NCBI GenBank assembly: GCA_023248635.1 | Contig: JAHFED010000041.1 | Coordinates: 1 to 57,963 of the forward strand | Direction of reading: 5' to 3' | Length of the DNA stretch: 57,963 nucleotides | Source: Myxococcales bacterium | Lineage (GTDB): Bacteria > Myxococcota > UBA727 > VGSZ01 | Shown here: piece after piece, positions 22,867 to 30,688 of the stretch | Layout of the letters: each line of letters opens with the position of its first letter | How positions within the stretch are numbered: position 1 is the stretch's first letter | The notes under the pieces: generated by a model | Databases searched by the model: none | Told to the model about the DNA's origin: nothing | The model's input: only the letters and a program-made list of their open reading frames with translations | Program-made: the position numbers and the translations under genes

Positions 22867-23193
22867 ATGACGCTGCTGCGGGTGCGGCTGCAACAAGCCT
22901 TCGACCTGTTGCGTCTGCAACACACAGCGGAGGCCCGCGACGTGTTGCAGAGCCTGGTCGACGACGAGCTGGCAGACGCCGTGGTGTGGGAGACCCTTGG
23001 CGACGTGCGCGACAAGCTCGGCGACTCCGAGGGCGCCGTCGAAGCCTGGAAGCAGGCCATCGATCTCTATCTCGCGCGCCAGATGATCAAGAGGGCCGAG
23101 GGCGTGCTCGAGCTGTTGCTGATCCTGCGCCCCGACGACGTCGATGCCCTGGCGACTCTCGCGGGCCTCAAAGCCTCAGCGGTCGACAGCTGA
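22867..23193 (+). CDS. Short TPR-like protein
   Basis: The 108 residues are entirely helical, with two to three TPR-like hairpins (AVVWETLGDVRDKLGDSEGA and AVEAWKQAIDLYLARQMIKR). It is probably a small scaffold. The 127-base gap before it has no other recognisable feature beyond a G-rich ribosome site (AAGGGGACGGGGG). Its 3' end overlaps the convergent NuoD-like gene by 18 bases. Confidence 0.6.
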   Translation: MTLLRVRLQQAFDLLRLQHTAEARDVLQSLVDDELADAVVWETLGDVRDKLGDSEGAVEAWKQAIDLYLARQMIKRAEGVLELLLILRPDDVDALATLAGLKASAVDS

Positions 23194-24408
23194 AGCGCGA
23201 ATGCCGAAGGAGGCGACGACGGCGGCGACGTCTTCGAGCGTCACGTCGACGAGAGCGGGAGGCAGCGCGGCCACCAGCGCCAGATCGGGGGGGCGCAAAC
23301 GCAGGCGTTGCACCCGCTGGCCGGCGATGGCCACGAGCGCTGCCGTGGTGCCCGCGGGGCCGCGCACCTGGGCGGTGCCGATGCCATCGGCGACGTCGTG
23401 GAGGGTGGGGGGCTCGGCCTCGGGGTCGGGGAGGGCTTGCAAGCGCGTTCGCAGGCGAGCCGCTGCGTCGACTGCGTCGGCATGGCGCACGCGCAGGCGC
23501 GACCAGGCACAGCCCCGCAGTCCCTTGCCTTCGATGACCAAAGGTGGGGCAGCTTCGAGATCGATGCCGGGAGTGTCGTCGACGTCGCCGCTGGCGCGCA
23601 GCGCCGGTCCGTCGACGCCCAGCCTGCGGGCGATGGCCGGGCCCAGGCGCCCCACGCCCTCGAGCCAGGAAAACGCGCGCGCGGGATCGAGGGCCAAGAG
23701 CGGCTCCTCGACATCGCTGAGGAGGCGCAAGAGCATCTCGGCTTCCTCGGCGGGCAAGGGCCGGCGCACGCCAAAAGGAGCGTGAAAGACGTCGTCGGCG
23801 CACAACCCGTCCAGCAGTCCAGCGGCGGCGCGCCAGGCTGTGCGCGCGAGGGTGCGAGGTCCCAAACGCCCCCCAGCCGCGCGCAGCGCAGGGCAGGCCA
23901 GCAGACGCATGTTCTCGACGATGATCAAAAGATCGAGGGCGATGCGCCGGTGGGCCGTCGTCGACGCCGAGGGCCGGCGCGTTTTGTCGTCACGGCCCCC
24001 GAGCCGCTCGACGGCGCAGGCCACCGCCAGGGCGCTCTGCAATCCCGGCTCGGCCCGAGCGATGAGAGCAAAGAGGCCGACGTCGACGGCGCGCCCCTGC
24101 GACCGGCGCTCGAGCGCTTGGTGCGTGAAACCCATGTCGACGGCGACGTCGGTGACGCGGATGCCTTCGAGAGAGAGGCGCAGACCCAGGGGCAGGGGCA
24201 GGCTGCGATCGAGGGGGCCGATGCTGTGCGAGGTATGCCGCGACAGGGGACTCCGGCGACCGCGGGCGACCTCGCGAGGCAGCTCGTCTTCGACCGTGGG
24301 TCGCACGAGATCGTCGTCGACGACGTCGCGCTCGACGCCCGGATCTTCGCTCTCCTTTTGCAGGTCGGGCATCAAGGCGCCTGGCAGCTCCTCGAGGATG
24401 GTTCTCAT
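23176..24408 (-). CDS. NuoD / hydrogenase large-subunit-like protein, divergent
   Basis: The 410-residue protein aligns by eye with NuoD (49-kDa complex I subunit) and group 4 hydrogenase large subunits. Matches are MGFTHQALERRSQGRAVD for GxxHRGxEKL, GPALRASGDVDD for GPxLRASGxxxD, and a NuoD-like C-terminus (RLRLRPPDLALVAALPPAL, then FGIRASAVDR like xxGEVDR). It has none of the CxxC pairs that bind NiFe in hydrogenases. The N-terminal HPSTH loop of NuoD, which contributes to the quinone site, reads GPLDRSLP and lacks both His. It is the last of four overlapping genes (ATGA with the NuoC-like gene). A redox role is doubtful; a structural role is possible. Confidence 0.75.
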   Translation of the reverse strand: MRTILEELPGALMPDLQKESEDPGVERDVVDDDLVRPTVEDELPREVARGRRSPLSRHTSHSIGPLDRSLPLPLGLRLSLEGIRVTDVAVDMGFTHQALERRSQGRAVDVGLFALIARAEPGLQSALAVACAVERLGGRDDKTRRPSASTTAHRRIALDLLIIVENMRLLACPALRAAGGRLGPRTLARTAWRAAAGLLDGLCADDVFHAPFGVRRPLPAEEAEMLLRLLSDVEEPLLALDPARAFSWLEGVGRLGPAIARRLGVDGPALRASGDVDDTPGIDLEAAPPLVIEGKGLRGCAWSRLRVRHADAVDAAARLRTRLQALPDPEAEPPTLHDVADGIGTAQVRGPAGTTAALVAIAGQRVQRLRLRPPDLALVAALPPALVDVTLEDVAAVVASFGIRASAVDR

Positions 24409-24911
24409 TTGGGGCGCCGGGGGACCGGGCCGCTCACGATGCGCGCGGGTCGGGCCGTGGGGACCTGGGGCTGCGCCTTTTGGATGCGGTAGCTGTTGAG
24501 CAGCGGGTGCCCCGCGAAGCCCTCGGGCAGCAAGGCCCGGCGCAACGAAGGATGACCGGTCGGCGTCACGCCGAACATCTCCCAGAGCTCGCGCTCCGCT
24601 GACCAGGCGGCGCGCCAGATGCCGGTCAGCGAGGGGAAAGCGGGTTCGTCGTCGTCGAGGGCGGCTCGGATCTGAACGCGACTGCCGTGGGCCCGAGAAG
24701 CCAGACACACCACCAACAACAGGGCAGCGGATTGCACGACGGTGACGTCGACGAAGGTGTCGAAGGCCGCGTCGCGATCGGTGTGCAGAAAACGCGCGAG
24801 CGGGCGCAGGTCGCCTGGGGTGGTGGTGAAGACGACGACGTCAGCTTCGACGCACGAGGTGAACGACAGCGTCGGCAAGCGGGCCCGCACCAGGGCGACG
24901 ACGCCCATCAT
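24405..24911 (-). CDS. NuoC-like (30-kDa subunit) protein
   Basis: The 168 residues contain the NuoC/HycE-N signature ERELWEMFGVTPTGHPSLRR followed by GFAGHPLLNSY, where the canonical form has GHPxLRRIL and GHPLRKD. The N-terminal alpha/beta part (FDTFVDVTVVQSAALLLVVC) also fits the family. In complex I this subunit supports NuoB and NuoD at the quinone end. It overlaps the genes on both sides by four bases, so the set is one operon. The family carries no cofactor, so it gives no test of activity. Confidence 0.78.
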   Translation of the reverse strand: MMGVVALVRARLPTLSFTSCVEADVVVFTTTPGDLRPLARFLHTDRDAAFDTFVDVTVVQSAALLLVVCLASRAHGSRVQIRAALDDDEPAFPSLTGIWRAAWSAERELWEMFGVTPTGHPSLRRALLPEGFAGHPLLNSYRIQKAQPQVPTARPARIVSGPVPRRPK

Positions 24912-25327
24912 GGGGCAACCCCCGCATCGGCGAAGAGGGCCTGAAGGGCACGCGCCAGGGTCTCATCGTCAGGAGGCATGCCCGGCACCAACACATCGAC
25001 GTCGACGATGGCATCGGCGCGCGCCACCGCGTAATGGACGTCGTCGTCGTCGTCGAAGGCCAGGACGCGGGCACCGGCGGGCAGGGCGCCGTGCAGGGAC
25101 AGCAGGGCGGGGGCGAGCTTGTGAGAGATGCGCCCGATGATCACCAGCACGTCGGCCTGGGCGGGGTCTCGGGCATCGGTGGGCAGGGGGAGGGCGTCGC
25201 CGTCGGTGACCCGCTCAGCGAAGGCGCGGGCGGCTGGGCTCGACAAGGCTCCGACGACGACGAGGGCACAGCGCCCGCGCAAGGCCGCCCAGCGTTGCAG
25301 CTGCACGGGGCTCAGGTGCTCAGCCAC
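24908..25327 (-). CDS. NuoB-like protein lacking all iron-sulphur cysteines
   Basis: The GTG at 25327 overlaps the stop of the upstream membrane-protein gene and gives 139 residues. The central and C-terminal parts follow NuoB closely: ADVLVIIGRISHKLAPALLS for ADxMxVAGTxxxKMAP, and DVDVLVPGMPPDDETLARAL for PVDxYxPGCPPxxEAL. All cysteines that hold cluster N2 in NuoB are gone: the CC pair region reads RCALVVVG, the GSCA loop has become DDDDDV, and PGCPP is PGMPP. The protein therefore cannot bind the cluster in the known way. This is divergence rather than decay, since the frame and the hydrophobic core are kept. Confidence 0.75.
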   Translation of the reverse strand: MAEHLSPVQLQRWAALRGRCALVVVGALSSPAARAFAERVTDGDALPLPTDARDPAQADVLVIIGRISHKLAPALLSLHGALPAGARVLAFDDDDDVHYAVARADAIVDVDVLVPGMPPDDETLARALQALFADAGVAP

Positions 25328-25676
25328 GGGGCTCCCGCATCCTCGCGCTGTGGCCGCTGCTTTCGCGCGCGGGAGTGCGATCAGCCAGTGCCATGAAGCT
25401 GCCCCGCCACCACATCCACAGCAGGCCGACGACGAGGGCGGCGACGCCGATCTGCACCTCGGCATCGAGGTTCCACGCCGAGATCCCTGCCAGGGCGATG
25501 GCCGCGACGCCGGCAAGGACGGCTCGCTCGAGGCCGCGGGCTGGAAAACGACCGCGCCCGCTCAGCTCTCCCGAAGGGTGGGGGGCCCCACGCGCCACCA
25601 GCAAGGCGACGACGACGCCGACGACGCCGAAGGCCGATCCCGCTGCCGCCAGGGCCGCTGCCTGCTCGCTCAACAT
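25320..25676 (-). CDS. Three-helix membrane protein in the NuoA position
   Basis: The 118 residues contain three predicted transmembrane helices (FGVVGVVVALLVA, VLAGVAAIALAGI, VQIGVAALVVGLLWMWW) and a polar basic tail. Length and helix number equal NuoA, and it is the first gene of a run whose other members are NuoB-, C- and D-like, but I see none of NuoA's conserved residues. It could anchor the other three proteins to the membrane. The stop overlaps the next gene. The array of palindromic repeats lies upstream of its start. Confidence 0.65.
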   Translation of the reverse strand: MLSEQAAALAAAGSAFGVVGVVVALLVARGAPHPSGELSGRGRFPARGLERAVLAGVAAIALAGISAWNLDAEVQIGVAALVVGLLWMWWRGSFMALADRTPARESSGHSARMREPRG

Positions 25677-25800: not shown

Positions 25801-26018
25801 AGGCGCGCAGCGTCTTGGAGTTTGGACGTTCAAGACGCTGGCGCGTCTTGGAGTTTGGACGTTCAAGACGCTGGCGCGTCTTGAAGTTTGGACGTTCAAG
25901 ACGCTGGCGCGTCTTGAAGTTCTGATGATTCAAGACGCTGGCGCGTCTTGGAGTTTGGACGTTCAAGACGCTGGCGCGTCTTGAAGTTCTGATGATTCAA
26001 GACGCTGGCGCGCCTTGA
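25801..26018. repeat. Tandem palindromic repeat array, family A (TGGC loop)
   Basis: Six copies of the perfect palindrome CAAGACGC-TGGC-GCGTCTTG begin at 25831, 25864, 25897, 25931, 25964 and 25998. Their period is 33-34 bases and the spacers come in two types (GAGTTTGGACGTT-like and AAGTTCTGATGATT-like). The last copy has one change (CGCCTTG), and a degenerate copy precedes the first. The 343-base gap 25677-26019 holds little else, apart from a GTTTTGA/TCAAAAC hairpin near 25783. Single or paired copies recur at 31689 and 51396-51449. The spacers are near-identical and no cas genes are present, so this is not CRISPR. Confidence 0.92.
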
Positions 26019-26019
26019 A

Positions 26020-27297
26020 ATGCGGCACAGTACGCCCGTGCTCACCCTCGCCGACGTCATCGCTGCCCGTTCGCGCCTGAACGGTTTCGTCGTTCGCACC
26101 CCGCTGGCGCCTTCGTCGGCTCTCTCGACGCTGGCCGGTGGCGAGGTGAGGCTCAAGCTCGAGAACCTGCAGGTCACCGGATCCTTCAAGGCCCGCGGCG
26201 CGCTCAACCGGCTGGTGACCCTCAGCGACGACGACAAGAAGCGCGGCGTGATCGCGGCCTCGGCGGGCAACCACGCCCAGGGCGTCGCGGCCCACGCCAC
26301 CCGCTTGGGCATCAAGAGCGTGATCGTGATGCCGGTGTCGACCCCGCTCATCAAGGTCAGCCGCACCCAGAATTACGGCGCCGAGGTGGTGCTGTACGGC
26401 GAAAACTACGACGACGCCTTCGCCAAAGCGACGGAGCTCGCCGCCCAGCACGGCTACGTCTACGTCCACGCCTACGACGACGATCACGTCATGGCGGGGC
26501 AGGGCACCATTGGCCTCGAGATCCTCGAAGACTTCGCCGACGTCGACGACGTGGTCGTGCCGGTGGGCGGCGGCGGCCTGATCGCGGGCATCGGGGTGGC
26601 CATCAAGGCCCAGCGTCCTCAGGTGCGTCTCATCGGCGTCGAGCCCAGCGTGCTGCCGTCGATGACCAGGGCCCTGGCCGCGGGCCAGCCGGTGCAGCTG
26701 CCGGCGGCGCGCACCCTGGCCGAGGGGATCGCCGTGCGCCTGGTGGGCCAAAAGAACGTCGACGTCTGCAAGCTCGTCGTCGACGACATCGTCACCGTCG
26801 AAGACGATCAGATCGCGCGGGCCATCTTGTTCCTGCTCGAGAGCGAAAAGACCGTGGCCGAAGGAGCAGGAGCCGCCGCCGTCGCCGCCTTGCTTGCCGG
26901 GCGTTTGCAGACCAAGGGCAGAAAGGTCGCGCTGCTGGTGTGTGGCGGCAACATCGACGTCGGCGTGCTCTCGCGCATCATCGAGCGCGGGTTGGTCGAG
27001 AGCGGCCGGCTCACGCGCTTGGAGGTGTTGGTGCCCGACCGACCTGGGGCCCTGGCCGAGGCCCTGACCGAGGTCGCCCGCACGCGCGCCAACGTCATCG
27101 AGGTGCACCACGAGCGGGCCTTCTTGAGCGGCAGCCTGGGGCAGGTGCGCGTCGACCTCGTCGTCGAGACGCGCGGTCCGGAGCATGTGCGGGATCTCAT
27201 CGAAGCGCTCCGCGCCCGCGGCTTTGAGCCCTCCTTCGACCCCCGTGACGCCAAGAGCTCGACGACCCGCATGGACGGGTCGACGCCAGGTGGCTAG
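26020..27297 (+). CDS. ilvA: Threonine dehydratase (PLP) with C-terminal ACT domain
   Basis: The PLP lysine is in [13 protein letters not shown], the glycine-rich phosphate loop is [13 protein letters not shown], and [13 protein letters not shown] binds the substrate carboxylate. Residues from about 330 form an ACT domain ([20 protein letters not shown]) expected to sense an amino acid. The length of 425 residues fits the single-ACT form. It deaminates threonine (and serine) to the 2-oxo acid. The ATG at 26020 comes right after the last palindrome of the repeat array; GTG at 26038 is a good alternative because conserved sequence begins there. RidA, which clears the enzyme's by-product, is encoded at 14.0 kb. 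Confidence 0.93.
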
Positions 27298-27333: not shown

Positions 27334-28494
27334 ATGATCACCCGCTCCTTGAACTTTGTCCTCGCCGGGCGCCGCCCCCACTCCGTGTGGTCCCCCCAGG
27401 GCGCCCGGCTGCGGAAGAGCTTGGGCACCTCCTTGTTCATCGCCCTCCTCGGCGTCGCTGGCTGCCCGGCTGCGTCGGGTCCGTCGTCGGTGGGTGCAAA
27501 GACGACCTGCTCGGCTGCCTCCCTGGCCCTGGCCGATGACGCCGTCGTTGGCGTCTTCGACGGCAAGACCTTGACCTACCAAGACCTCGGCCCCGAGGTG
27601 AAACGCGCTGAAGAAAAGGCCCTGCGCCAATACTGCGACGCCGTCTCCGGGGTCCGCCGCGTGGCCTTTGACAACCACGTCACTGAAGCCCTGGTCGGCG
27701 CCGAAGCGAAAAAGGCCGGCAAGACCAACGAGGAGTGGGTCCGTGGCGAGGTCGACAAGCGCGTGCCCGAGCCCGCAGACGCCGACGTTCAGGCCTTCTA
27801 CGACAAGCAAAAGACGGCCATGGGCGATCAGCTCCCGCCCCTCGACGTCGTCAAGCCGCAGGTCGTGGGGTTCTTGAAGCGTGAAAAGAGCGAGGCCGCC
27901 GTCGAGGAGGTCATCAGCGGCCTGTTGAAGTCGGCATCGGTGCAAAAGAAGCTCCCCGACGTCCGCAGCCCCCCCCTGGAGTTCCCGGTCGGCAAGAACA
28001 CCGCCGTCAAGGGCAAGGCCGGCAGCAAGGTCGTCGTCGTCGAATTCGCCGATTTCCAGTGCCCCTACTGCAGCAAGGCCGGCGACAACGTCAAAGAGCT
28101 CGTCACCAAATACGGCGACCGCGTCGAGTTCCAGTACCGCAACTTCCCGCTGCGCCAGATGCACCCCAACGCCCAGCGCGCCGGCGAGATCGCCCAGTGC
28201 GCGGGCGAGCAGGGCAAGTTCTGGGCGGTGCACGACACGTTCTATGCAAACCAGAGCAGCCTCGAAGAAGAGAACGCCAAGAAGCTCGCCAAAGAAGCCG
28301 GCGTCGACGACACCAAGCTCAACGAATGCCTGGCTGCGGGCCGCGGTGCTGCCCAGGTCGACGAAGATGTGGCCAAGGGCGAGCTCGCTGGCATCGAAGG
28401 AACGCCGAGCTTCTTCATCAACGGCCGCTCCTACACCGGCAACCCCACGGTCGCCGGCCTGGCCCAAGCCCTCGAGGAAGAGCTCAAGCTCTGA
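27334..28494 (+). CDS. DsbA-like thiol oxidoreductase lipoprotein with SurA-like N-terminal region
   Basis: The ATG at 27334 is preceded by GGAAAG at good spacing. A Tat-like or long Sec leader ends in the lipobox LLGVAGC. Residues about 60-190 are helical and resemble the N-terminal region of SurA/PpiC chaperones. From about residue 225 there is a thioredoxin-fold domain with FADFQCPYCSKAG (CPYC active site), the DsbA-type helical insert, and IEGTPSFFINGRSYTG with the cis-Pro. The protein should catalyse or isomerise disulphides in the periplasm while tethered to a membrane. Confidence 0.88.
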   Translation: MITRSLNFVLAGRRPHSVWSPQGARLRKSLGTSLFIALLGVAGCPAASGPSSVGAKTTCSAASLALADDAVVGVFDGKTLTYQDLGPEVKRAEEKALRQYCDAVSGVRRVAFDNHVTEALVGAEAKKAGKTNEEWVRGEVDKRVPEPADADVQAFYDKQKTAMGDQLPPLDVVKPQVVGFLKREKSEAAVEEVISGLLKSASVQKKLPDVRSPPLEFPVGKNTAVKGKAGSKVVVVEFADFQCPYCSKAGDNVKELVTKYGDRVEFQYRNFPLRQMHPNAQRAGEIAQCAGEQGKFWAVHDTFYANQSSLEEENAKKLAKEAGVDDTKLNECLAAGRGAAQVDEDVAKGELAGIEGTPSFFINGRSYTGNPTVAGLAQALEEELKL

Positions 28495-28600
28495 GCGACG
28501 CTGGGCGAGCGACGCGGATGCCGACGTCGACAACGTCATCATCCGCGCCTCTCGTCTCGGTGCGCTCGCCGTGGAGCCGCGGAGTCAAGATCCACCTCGG

Positions 28601-30688
28601 ATGATTCACCCCCTTCCCCCTGCGACCACAGCCGCCCTGGAGCGCGTCGACGACGTCGATGTGCCTTTTCGGCGTCGGGTGTCGCGGCGTCTGGCCTCCT
28701 GGGCGGCCGGGACGGCCTTGGTGCTGGGCGCCGTGGGCTTCGCCTTGCTCGCCCCCTACCAAAACCTGGAGGCCGAACGTGTGGCCGCCGACCACATCGG
28801 CCTCTTGGCCGAGGCCGTGGCCGCCACCTACGAGCAAGACGAACCGGGCCAGCAGAAAAAACCCGCCGTCGACGACGACATCGAGCGCGAGGCCGCCGAC
28901 CCCGCCGACGTCGAGCGCGAACACATTCACCGTGCGCGCGAGATTCTGGTGCAGCTGCAGCGCGCCGACGGCATCATCGCCATCGACGTCGCCGACCACC
29001 AGGGCAAGGTGAAGCAATCCACCAAAGCGGCACGATTGGGCTTGAGCCAGCCCGCCCCCGACCGGCTGCGCCAATCCCACGTCGACGGCGACACCTTGAC
29101 CGTCAGCTATGCCATTCCGTTCACGCGCCGCTGCGCCGCCTGCCACGACAGCAGCCAAGACCCAGTAGGCGCCGTCCACGTCGTCGTCGACAAAGCCGCG
29201 GCGTTCTCCTCCCTCGATCGCTACCGCACCGTCATGGGCTTGGTGCTGATCGGGACCTACGTGATCCTGGTGCTGCTCATCGTGGTCTTTGCCGATCGCC
29301 TCGTGGGCAAGCCGGTCTTTGCTCTCGCGCGGCTGATGAAGCGAGCCGAGCGCGGTGATTTCCTGGTGCGCGCGCGCGTGGCCGGCGACGACGAATTGGG
29401 TGCCTTGGCCATGGCCTTCAACCGCATGCTCCGCGCCATCACCTCGATGAAAGCCGATGAGCTCGAGCGCGAGCGCAAGCTGAATGCCGCCGAGCTCGAG
29501 CTCTCGATGAAGCAAGAGCTCGCCGTCGTCGCCGAGCGGCTGCAGCAGAGCAATGCCGCCCTCGAGCGCCGCGTGCGAGCGCAGGAGCTCTTGATGGAGG
29601 CCGCCCACCGCCTCGGCTCCACCCTCGACAAAGCCGCCCTGCTCGAGCGCTTGAGCCGCGTCATCCGCGAGAAGCTCGGACGGCCAGATTTCTTGATCTA
29701 CCTCGTCGTCGAAGCCGAAGACCGCGAGGCCCGCCTCGAGGTGGTGCGGGCTTCGGGTCTGCTCGATCGCGACGACGTCCGTGGCCGGCGCTTTCGGGTC
29801 GGCGAGGGCATCACGGGACTGGTCGCCGAGACCGGGGCGCCGCTGCTCGTGCACGACCTGCGCGACCCTTTCGCGCGCACGGCAACGCCGCCCACGGTGC
29901 AGACGCCGCCGCTCATCGAAGAAGGATCCCTGGTGGCCGTGCCCATGCTGCACAAGGGCCGCGTCGTCGGCGTCTTCGAATTCTACGACCCGCGCATCGG
30001 GGCCTTCGACGACGACGACGGCAAGCTGCTGGAGGCCCTCGGAGCCCAGGCCGCCATGGCCGTCGTCAACGCCGACCTCTACCAGACCACCCTGGAGCTT
30101 TCGGTCACCGACAGTCTCACCAAGCTGATGAACCGCCGGGCGCTCAACCGGCTGCTCGACGCCGAGCTTGAACGGGCCCGCCGTTTCAACACGCCCCTCG
30201 CGGTGCTCATGCTCGATGTCGATCACTTCAAGCAATACAACGATCGCATGGGCCATCTGCTCGGCGACGACGCCCTCAAGGGAGTGGCGGTGGCCCTGGC
30301 TCAATCCGTGCGCAAGGTCGACGCCGTGGCCCGCTTCGGGGGCGAGGAATTCTGTGTGGTGCTGCCGCGCACCGACGAGGTGGCCGGTCTCGAGGTCGCC
30401 GACAAGCTGCTCAAGGCGGTGCGCGCCCTCGAGCTCCCGGGGGGCAGCTCCCAACCCTTGGGACGCATGAGCATCTCCGTCGGCGTCGCCGTCTACCCCG
30501 ACGACATGCCTCCCGCCTTCGACGAGCCGCCCATCAAGGTGCTGGTCGACGTCGCCGACCAGGCCGCCTACGAGGCCAAGCGCCGGGGCCGCGATCGCAT
30601 CGTCGCCGCCGGAGAAACGCGTCCCAAGAAGCCCAAACTGCACGAACCGGTCACCGGGCCACTGAAAAAAGAGCCACCGTCGGCCTAG
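28601..30688 (+). CDS. Haem-binding sensor diguanylate cyclase (HAMP-GAF-GGDEF)
   Basis: The 695-residue protein has TM1 at about residues 33-52, a periplasmic domain with a CAACH haem c motif at residues 178-182, and TM2 at about 212-232. HAMP and coiled-coil segments follow, then a GAF domain (about 335-480), then a GGDEF domain. The catalytic motif is intact (RFGGEEF) and an inhibitory RKVD site lies five residues before it. It should make cyclic di-GMP in response to a periplasmic redox or gas signal sensed by the haem. The periplasmic domain resembles DUF3365-type haem sensors. The 106-base leader contains a degenerate copy of a sequence also seen at 37908-37956. Confidence 0.9.
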   Translation: MIHPLPPATTAALERVDDVDVPFRRRVSRRLASWAAGTALVLGAVGFALLAPYQNLEAERVAADHIGLLAEAVAATYEQDEPGQQKKPAVDDDIEREAADPADVEREHIHRAREILVQLQRADGIIAIDVADHQGKVKQSTKAARLGLSQPAPDRLRQSHVDGDTLTVSYAIPFTRRCAACHDSSQDPVGAVHVVVDKAAAFSSLDRYRTVMGLVLIGTYVILVLLIVVFADRLVGKPVFALARLMKRAERGDFLVRARVAGDDELGALAMAFNRMLRAITSMKADELERERKLNAAELELSMKQELAVVAERLQQSNAALERRVRAQELLMEAAHRLGSTLDKAALLERLSRVIREKLGRPDFLIYLVVEAEDREARLEVVRASGLLDRDDVRGRRFRVGEGITGLVAETGAPLLVHDLRDPFARTATPPTVQTPPLIEEGSLVAVPMLHKGRVVGVFEFYDPRIGAFDDDDGKLLEALGAQAAMAVVNADLYQTTLELSVTDSLTKLMNRRALNRLLDAELERARRFNTPLAVLMLDVDHFKQYNDRMGHLLGDDALKGVAVALAQSVRKVDAVARFGGEEFCVVLPRTDEVAGLEVADKLLKAVRALELPGGSSQPLGRMSISVGVAVYPDDMPPAFDEPPIKVLVDVADQAAYEAKRRGRDRIVAAGETRPKKPKLHEPVTGPLKKEPPSA

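Follow-up and report, generated by a model that had tools for sequence, protein, structure and literature searches.

Why would a bacterium keep genes for a respiratory complex whose iron-sulphur ligands have been lost? The question is raised by four overlapping genes in a 57,963-nucleotide stretch of DNA from a Myxococcales bacterium (contig JAHFED010000041.1 of assembly GCA_023248635.1; hereafter the window), the products of which resemble subunits NuoA, NuoB, NuoC and NuoD of complex I. The reading that we favour, with slightly better than an even chance, is that these genes encode the Q-module half (ABCD) of a second complex I that is catalytically dead and has its membrane arm (JKLMN) encoded elsewhere in the genome, and that the two halves form a non-redox membrane assembly.

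Four nuo-like genes without redox residues

An earlier note on this DNA described four minus-strand genes overlapping end to end in the order nuoA-B-C-D, with no other nuo gene nearby, and our coordinates agree on both counts. On the minus strand, the NuoA-like gene A (25320..25676, ATG start, 118 aa) encodes three hydrophobic segments and carries a C-terminal W-x-x-RG motif resembling the WAWKKG of NuoA. It is followed by the NuoB-like gene B, which is without any cysteine ligand of the iron-sulphur cluster N2 (24908..25327, GTG start, 139 aa), the NuoC-like gene C (24405..24911, ATG start, 168 aa) and the NuoD-like gene D (23176..24408, ATG start, 410 aa). A and B overlap by 8 bp, and B and C, like C and D, by 4 bp, overlaps which are those typical of a translationally coupled operon. 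Gene C is the best preserved of the four and keeps the motifs ERELWEMFG..GHPSLRR..GHP. A longer, 510-aa open reading frame was rejected as the D gene, because it starts inside C (its first 100 codons overlap C) and the conserved D start is at 24408. Scans of the locus for promoters, terminators and Rfam families gave no result. The window holds no further nuo gene near A-B-C-D, and the rest of the set sits on another contig.

Single-sequence searches against Pfam placed C in Complex1_30kDa (6e-29) and D in Complex1_49kDa (2e-6); B matched Oxidored_q6 at 2.5e-4, under the curated cut-off, and A had no Pfam match. NCBIfam assigned B to nuoB_fam (2e-9), D to FpoD (2e-12) and C to NuoC_fam (1.5e-24). 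When profiles built from five orthologues were searched against the PDB, B matched Thermus Nqo6 (6e-19) and D matched NuoD (5e-43), and the top match of A was a weak one to Thermus Nqo7, which is NuoA (E 0.028). Alignment by hhalign of A, and of the membrane protein J described below, with single canonical sequences yielded short matches only. The AlphaFold model of B had a mean predicted local distance difference test score (pLDDT) of 81, and the best 50 Foldseek matches listed for it were all from complex I (NDH-1) entries; the model of D, disordered at its N-terminus, had a pLDDT of 63 and NuoD/49-kDa chains as its top matches. Profile searches therefore place B, C and D in the NuoB, NuoC and NuoD families, and the proposal that the NuoB-like protein keeps the NuoB fold was borne out by profile and model alike. 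As judged by these comparisons, A-B-C-D of the window are homologues of NuoA-B-C-D, A weakly so. An Oxidored_q6 search of the window's own genome at the default Pfam threshold missed B, indicating that Pfam-based surveys would overlook a B of this kind.

The residues that bind N2 and quinone have been lost almost throughout. In none of the five B orthologues does any of the four N2 cysteines survive: other residues stand in place of the CC pair and of the Cys in GxCA and in PGCPP. The complete loss of ligands claimed for the window protein (0/4 retained) thus extends to its relatives, and no intact-Cys homologue was found among the five full-length orthologues. The window B has one Cys, elsewhere in the protein and not conserved; the other B orthologues are Cys-free. 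In D, the quinone Tyr of DRxDY is lost (5/5) and the GPQHPSTHG loop, which contains HPSTH, is replaced (5/5, with one His retained in the genomes G003 and G005). Hydrogenase-type NiFe CxxC pairs are absent from their usual places in D, and both deficits ascribed to the NuoD-like protein, of HPSTH and of these pairs, are thus real. The HRGxE motif has become HQ[GA]xE in 7/7 pseudo-D sequences. In the respiratory enzyme, HRGxE, the Arg of which lies 3.7 A from N2, is required for this cluster, which in turn is needed to reduce quinone, and the mutant enzyme still assembles in a native-like form (PMC8042128). Thermus thermophilus has Thr at this Arg position (PMC8042128), so the change to HQ[GA]xE is supporting and not decisive evidence. 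D has also gained an acidic N-terminal extension (DDDLVRP..E-E/D-x-L), which is conserved.

A degenerate membrane arm on another contig

Searching the window's own genome for Proton_antipo_M returned six matches, none of them to a canonical NuoM; they included canonical nuoL/N on contig C56, a hyf-like cluster on C57 and two weak matches on C6. The C6 locus encodes J-K-L-M-N, with short overlaps between the genes, and is equally degenerate. The four-gene module of the earlier note is therefore real but part of a larger set, which takes in the degenerate JKLMN on C6 and, in relatives, a degenerate H. Pfam assigned K to PF00420 (1.7e-6) and both L (2e-11) and M (5e-11) to PF00361, and PDB profile searches matched N best to NuoN/NdhB (1e-20) and K to Nqo11 (2e-6). 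The L and M profiles, searched against the PDB with very strict cut-offs only, gave no match there; these two are identified by Pfam and by matches to canonical subunits. J, with five hydrophobic segments and no sequence match, is identified by position and topology. Orthologues of JKLMN were found in G002 (L055), G001 (L056), G003 (L057) and G005 (L108), and the pseudo-J of G002 (L055 6755-7309) contains an inserted (GIGQ)n repeat.

A lone degenerate NuoH is present in G005 (contig C10) and G003 (contig C6 of that genome), at the same place in both, adjoining a kamA-like gene. The two proteins share 37% identity, match NuoH by profile at 3e-19 and have lost the Glu-rich loop (2/2). On C57 of the window's genome (L019) lies the group-4-hydrogenase/hyf-like cluster, with a Cys-bearing small subunit and a ferredoxin; its NuoH-like protein was considered as the missing pseudo-H and rejected, as it belongs to this cluster with intact Cys. 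No gene for NuoE, F, G or I adjoins either set in any genome, no genome-wide search for extra copies having been made.

We audited the proton relay by alignment with the canonical subunits of the same genomes, numbering the relay residues of K, L, M and N as in E. coli. In K, both Glu residues (E36 and E72) are lost in 5/5 orthologues, with no conserved acidic replacement in the subunit. L has lost the Glu of transmembrane helix (TM) 5 and the TM12 Lys (5/5), and its TM7 Lys has become Arg; M has lost the TM5 Glu and TM8 Lys; and N has lost the TM5 Glu and the TM7/TM8 Lys, an E..K pair remaining. These alignments suggest that the degenerate set is very probably dead as a proton pump.

Of the alternatives to a dead complex I, the one that survives best is a redox-free ion transporter, in which the membrane arm would conduct or exchange an ion through other residues, in the manner of Mrp, with ABCD serving as a regulatory cap. 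We regard this as unlikely, because the buried Glu-Lys pairs and terminal Lys/Glu are gone in 5/5 orthologues, a Glu-Lys pair and the terminal residue being essential in ND4 (PMC9802314), and because both NuoK Glu residues have gone without a compensating conserved acidic residue in K. What such a transporter has in its favour is the antiporter fold retained in L, M and N, the Arg in place of the TM7 Lys of NuoL, the E..K pair that N has kept, and the MscS-like and CPA-like genes that follow D in G003 and G005.

Distribution, selection and the canonical enzyme

A D profile run on 195 genomes of the phylum scored 542-588 bits in G000-G003 and G005 and at most 168 bits in all others, and a one-motif scan of 84,980 species genomes recovered the same four relatives, all of them metagenome-assembled genomes (MAGs), together with a distant fifth, G015. 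ABCD and JKLMN are both present in five genomes of two families (G000-G003 and G005). A reduced A-C-D set occurs in a third family of the same order, in G009 and G015, which have genomes of 1.7-1.8 Mb; here, a 270-aa D and C-like and A-like proteins adjoin the HAMP-GAF-GGDEF gene that is also present in the window, and all that is left of B, between A and C, is a remnant (VSxKLAPFL; L064 1231-1830, L009 2000-2620). Scanning about 1.2 Mb of G009 revealed a J-K-(L remnant)-M-N set on its contig C2. The two halves thus co-occur in 6/6 genomes where both were examined, and the degenerate set is, as far as searched, restricted to one order of Myxococcota. A search of viral contigs with C found no relatives, and tblastn of D against plasmids gave no match. 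In a D tree, the degenerate copies and G015 grouped together (99/100) apart from the canonical NuoD of the phylum, a placement made unsafe by long branches and skewed composition, and the tree was not used for inferring origin.

The frames of all nine genes are open, with overlaps of 4-8 bp, in five MAGs at 25-60% identity. The ratio of nonsynonymous to synonymous substitution rates (dN/dS, by Nei-Gojobori) was about 0.3-0.6 for B-D and J-N and 0.5-0.9 for A, a rough ratio given that dS was 0.9-1.7 and so close to saturation; canonical NuoH gave 0.19-0.26 for the same species pairs. Taken together, the degenerate genes stand at about 0.4-0.5, against 0.19 for canonical NuoH. As measured in this way, the constraint on the degenerate set is real but relaxed. 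Could the set then be a slowly decaying, functionless relic of a second complex I? Such a relic would explain why dN/dS lies above that of canonical NuoH, why B and L are remnants in the small-genome family and why H was not found in the window's genus. It would be hard to reconcile with nine open, overlapping frames in five such divergent genomes, or with the retention of A, C, D, J, K, M and N in a 1.8-Mb genome. Nor would it account for the new conserved motifs of D, the acidic N-terminus and HQ[GA]xE, since the E[ED]xL core of the former and the latter persist in the 270-aa D of G009 and G015. We consider a relic quite unlikely. The view of the earlier note, that the locus is a repurposed non-redox assembly and not a decaying pseudogene, is supported, in that none of the refuting tests it proposed, on intact-Cys homologues, broken frames or loss of constraint, and profile scores, overturned it; the non-redox task is something that we infer.

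The earlier note had also raised the matter of a separate, complete nuo operon. The window's genome does encode canonical NuoB with all its Cys residues, NuoD with HPSTH, NuoH and J-K-L-N, but these are scattered over several contigs: they are found as a lone nuoB, nuoD and nuoH and a J-K-L-N group (L018, L029, L030 and L118; contigs C54, C62, C56 and C4). The coexistence of these canonical subunits, dispersed over contigs, would suit a regulator or decoy, a dead copy that mixes with the canonical enzyme or aids its assembly, and paralogous assembly factors occur in other systems. That explanation is weakened by G005, a 96% complete genome in which canonical NuoD, NuoL and NuoH were not found and the degenerate set is kept, so that there, at least, the set is not merely a helper of canonical complex I; we judge it improbable as a general account. 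An artefact of misassembly, frameshifts or chance resemblance, which the metagenomic origin of every genome might suggest, we count as refuted by the same gene order and synteny in five independent MAGs and by profile and fold E-values down to 1e-43.

A possible task and the neighbouring genes

What can be read from the sequences is the homology of B-D, H and K-N to the subunits so named, the loss of the N2 ligands and of nearly all catalytic residues checked in D, H and K-N, the co-occurrence of the halves, the open frames and moderate purifying selection, and on these grounds the set is an ancient, redox-dead complex I paralogue kept by selection. To a broader history we give an even chance. 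In it, an almost entire complex I would have been duplicated, and the copy would have shed both its electron chain and its proton relay and turned into a membrane machine that neither does redox chemistry nor pumps, NuoD having acquired a new conserved face for input. An order of Myxococcota would have retained this machine, one genome having it instead of ordinary complex I and reduced genomes holding on to it even once the cluster subunit had gone. In this proposal the degenerate subunits would still assemble into a complex-I-shaped particle that carries no electrons and pumps no protons by the known Glu/Lys relay. A new input may be received at the cytosolic C/D face, probably via the conserved N-terminal motif of D, and may be passed on structurally, the particle acting as a scaffold or as a conformational gate for a partner. 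The proposed task is drawn only from what is kept as against what is lost: with cluster and proton relay gone and the architecture conserved, selection would act on shape or conformational coupling alone.

To our knowledge, known members of the complex I superfamily with a NuoB homologue keep the proximal iron-sulphur cluster there. Respiratory complex I shares with the degenerate set the A-B-C-D and J-K-L-M-N orders, overlapping genes, homologous folds for B-D, H and K-N and a NuoD that ends in ..DR; the set differs in lacking the N2 ligands, HRGxE, the quinone Tyr and the channel Glu/Lys residues, and in evolving faster. Energy-converting group 4 [NiFe] hydrogenases and the related Ehr complexes likewise have homologous large (D) and small (B) subunits and antiporter-like subunits, and some have lost the NiFe site, but their B-like subunit retains the proximal Fe-S cluster. 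The degenerate set has neither the NiFe CxxC pairs nor the proximal Fe-S Cys residues, and its B and D score best with NuoB and NuoD. Mrp-type cation/H+ antiporters resemble it in having antiporter-like subunits without redox centres; they are not known to have homologues of A, B, C, D or H, and they keep the Glu/Lys relay, whereas the degenerate set has ABCD and has lost the relay. MBS and MBH, archaeal relatives of complex I, do carry out redox chemistry, and their B-like subunit holds Fe-S clusters. They are like the proposed particle in being complex-I-shaped with altered chemistry, and the structure of MBS has been solved (PMC7684303).

A literature search, the coverage of which excluded subscription journals and most preprints, found no report of an assembly like this one. 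A natural dead complex I could reveal the contacts that hold the particle together, whether long-range coupling is put to uses besides pumping, and how an enzyme of respiration comes to be recruited to another task.

Several observations weigh against this reading. ABCD and JKLMN lie on separate contigs, and their joint assembly is a prediction from the genes; all genomes carrying the set are MAGs; and A and J owe their identity mainly to position and topology. The degenerate H was not found in the window's genus (G000-G002), where the kamA locus is present without H and a profile search gave canonical H only. Some ion conduction may persist, given the conserved Arg at NuoL TM7 and the E..K pair still present in N, and the raised dN/dS relative to canonical NuoH, with the decay of B and L in the small-genome family, makes ongoing slow loss possible. 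Finally, the neighbour genes do not converge on one function.

Those neighbours offer weak clues to the task, and from them we can only guess at envelope or ion signalling. The HAMP-GAF-GGDEF protein (28484..30688, plus strand) is a neighbour in G003 and G005 also and lies directly beside A in G009 and G015; as it is seen across three families, it is a possible functional partner. Genes for an MscS-like channel protein and for a membrane protein of CPA-like type follow D in G003 and G005 (L016 10233-12979, L017 10395-15264), and in G005 the region after D also holds a Kef-type antiporter. The pseudo-H of G003 and G005 is adjoined by a SycD/LcrH-like TPR gene and by a protein family with no Pfam match (L126 4017-5916, L116 3803-6084), and the latter family also adjoins the degenerate J-K-M-N of G009 (L181 13089-13937); the SycD/LcrH-like neighbours make a link to a type III-like system possible. 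A divergent threonine dehydratase-like gene (PALP and ACT domains; 26020..27297, plus strand) is conserved beside ABCD in G000-G003 and G005 and is not claimed as part of the assembly. Between A and this gene, positions 25810-26019 of the window contain about six 33-bp units, each palindrome-like (GCGTCTTGAA..TTCAAGACGC).

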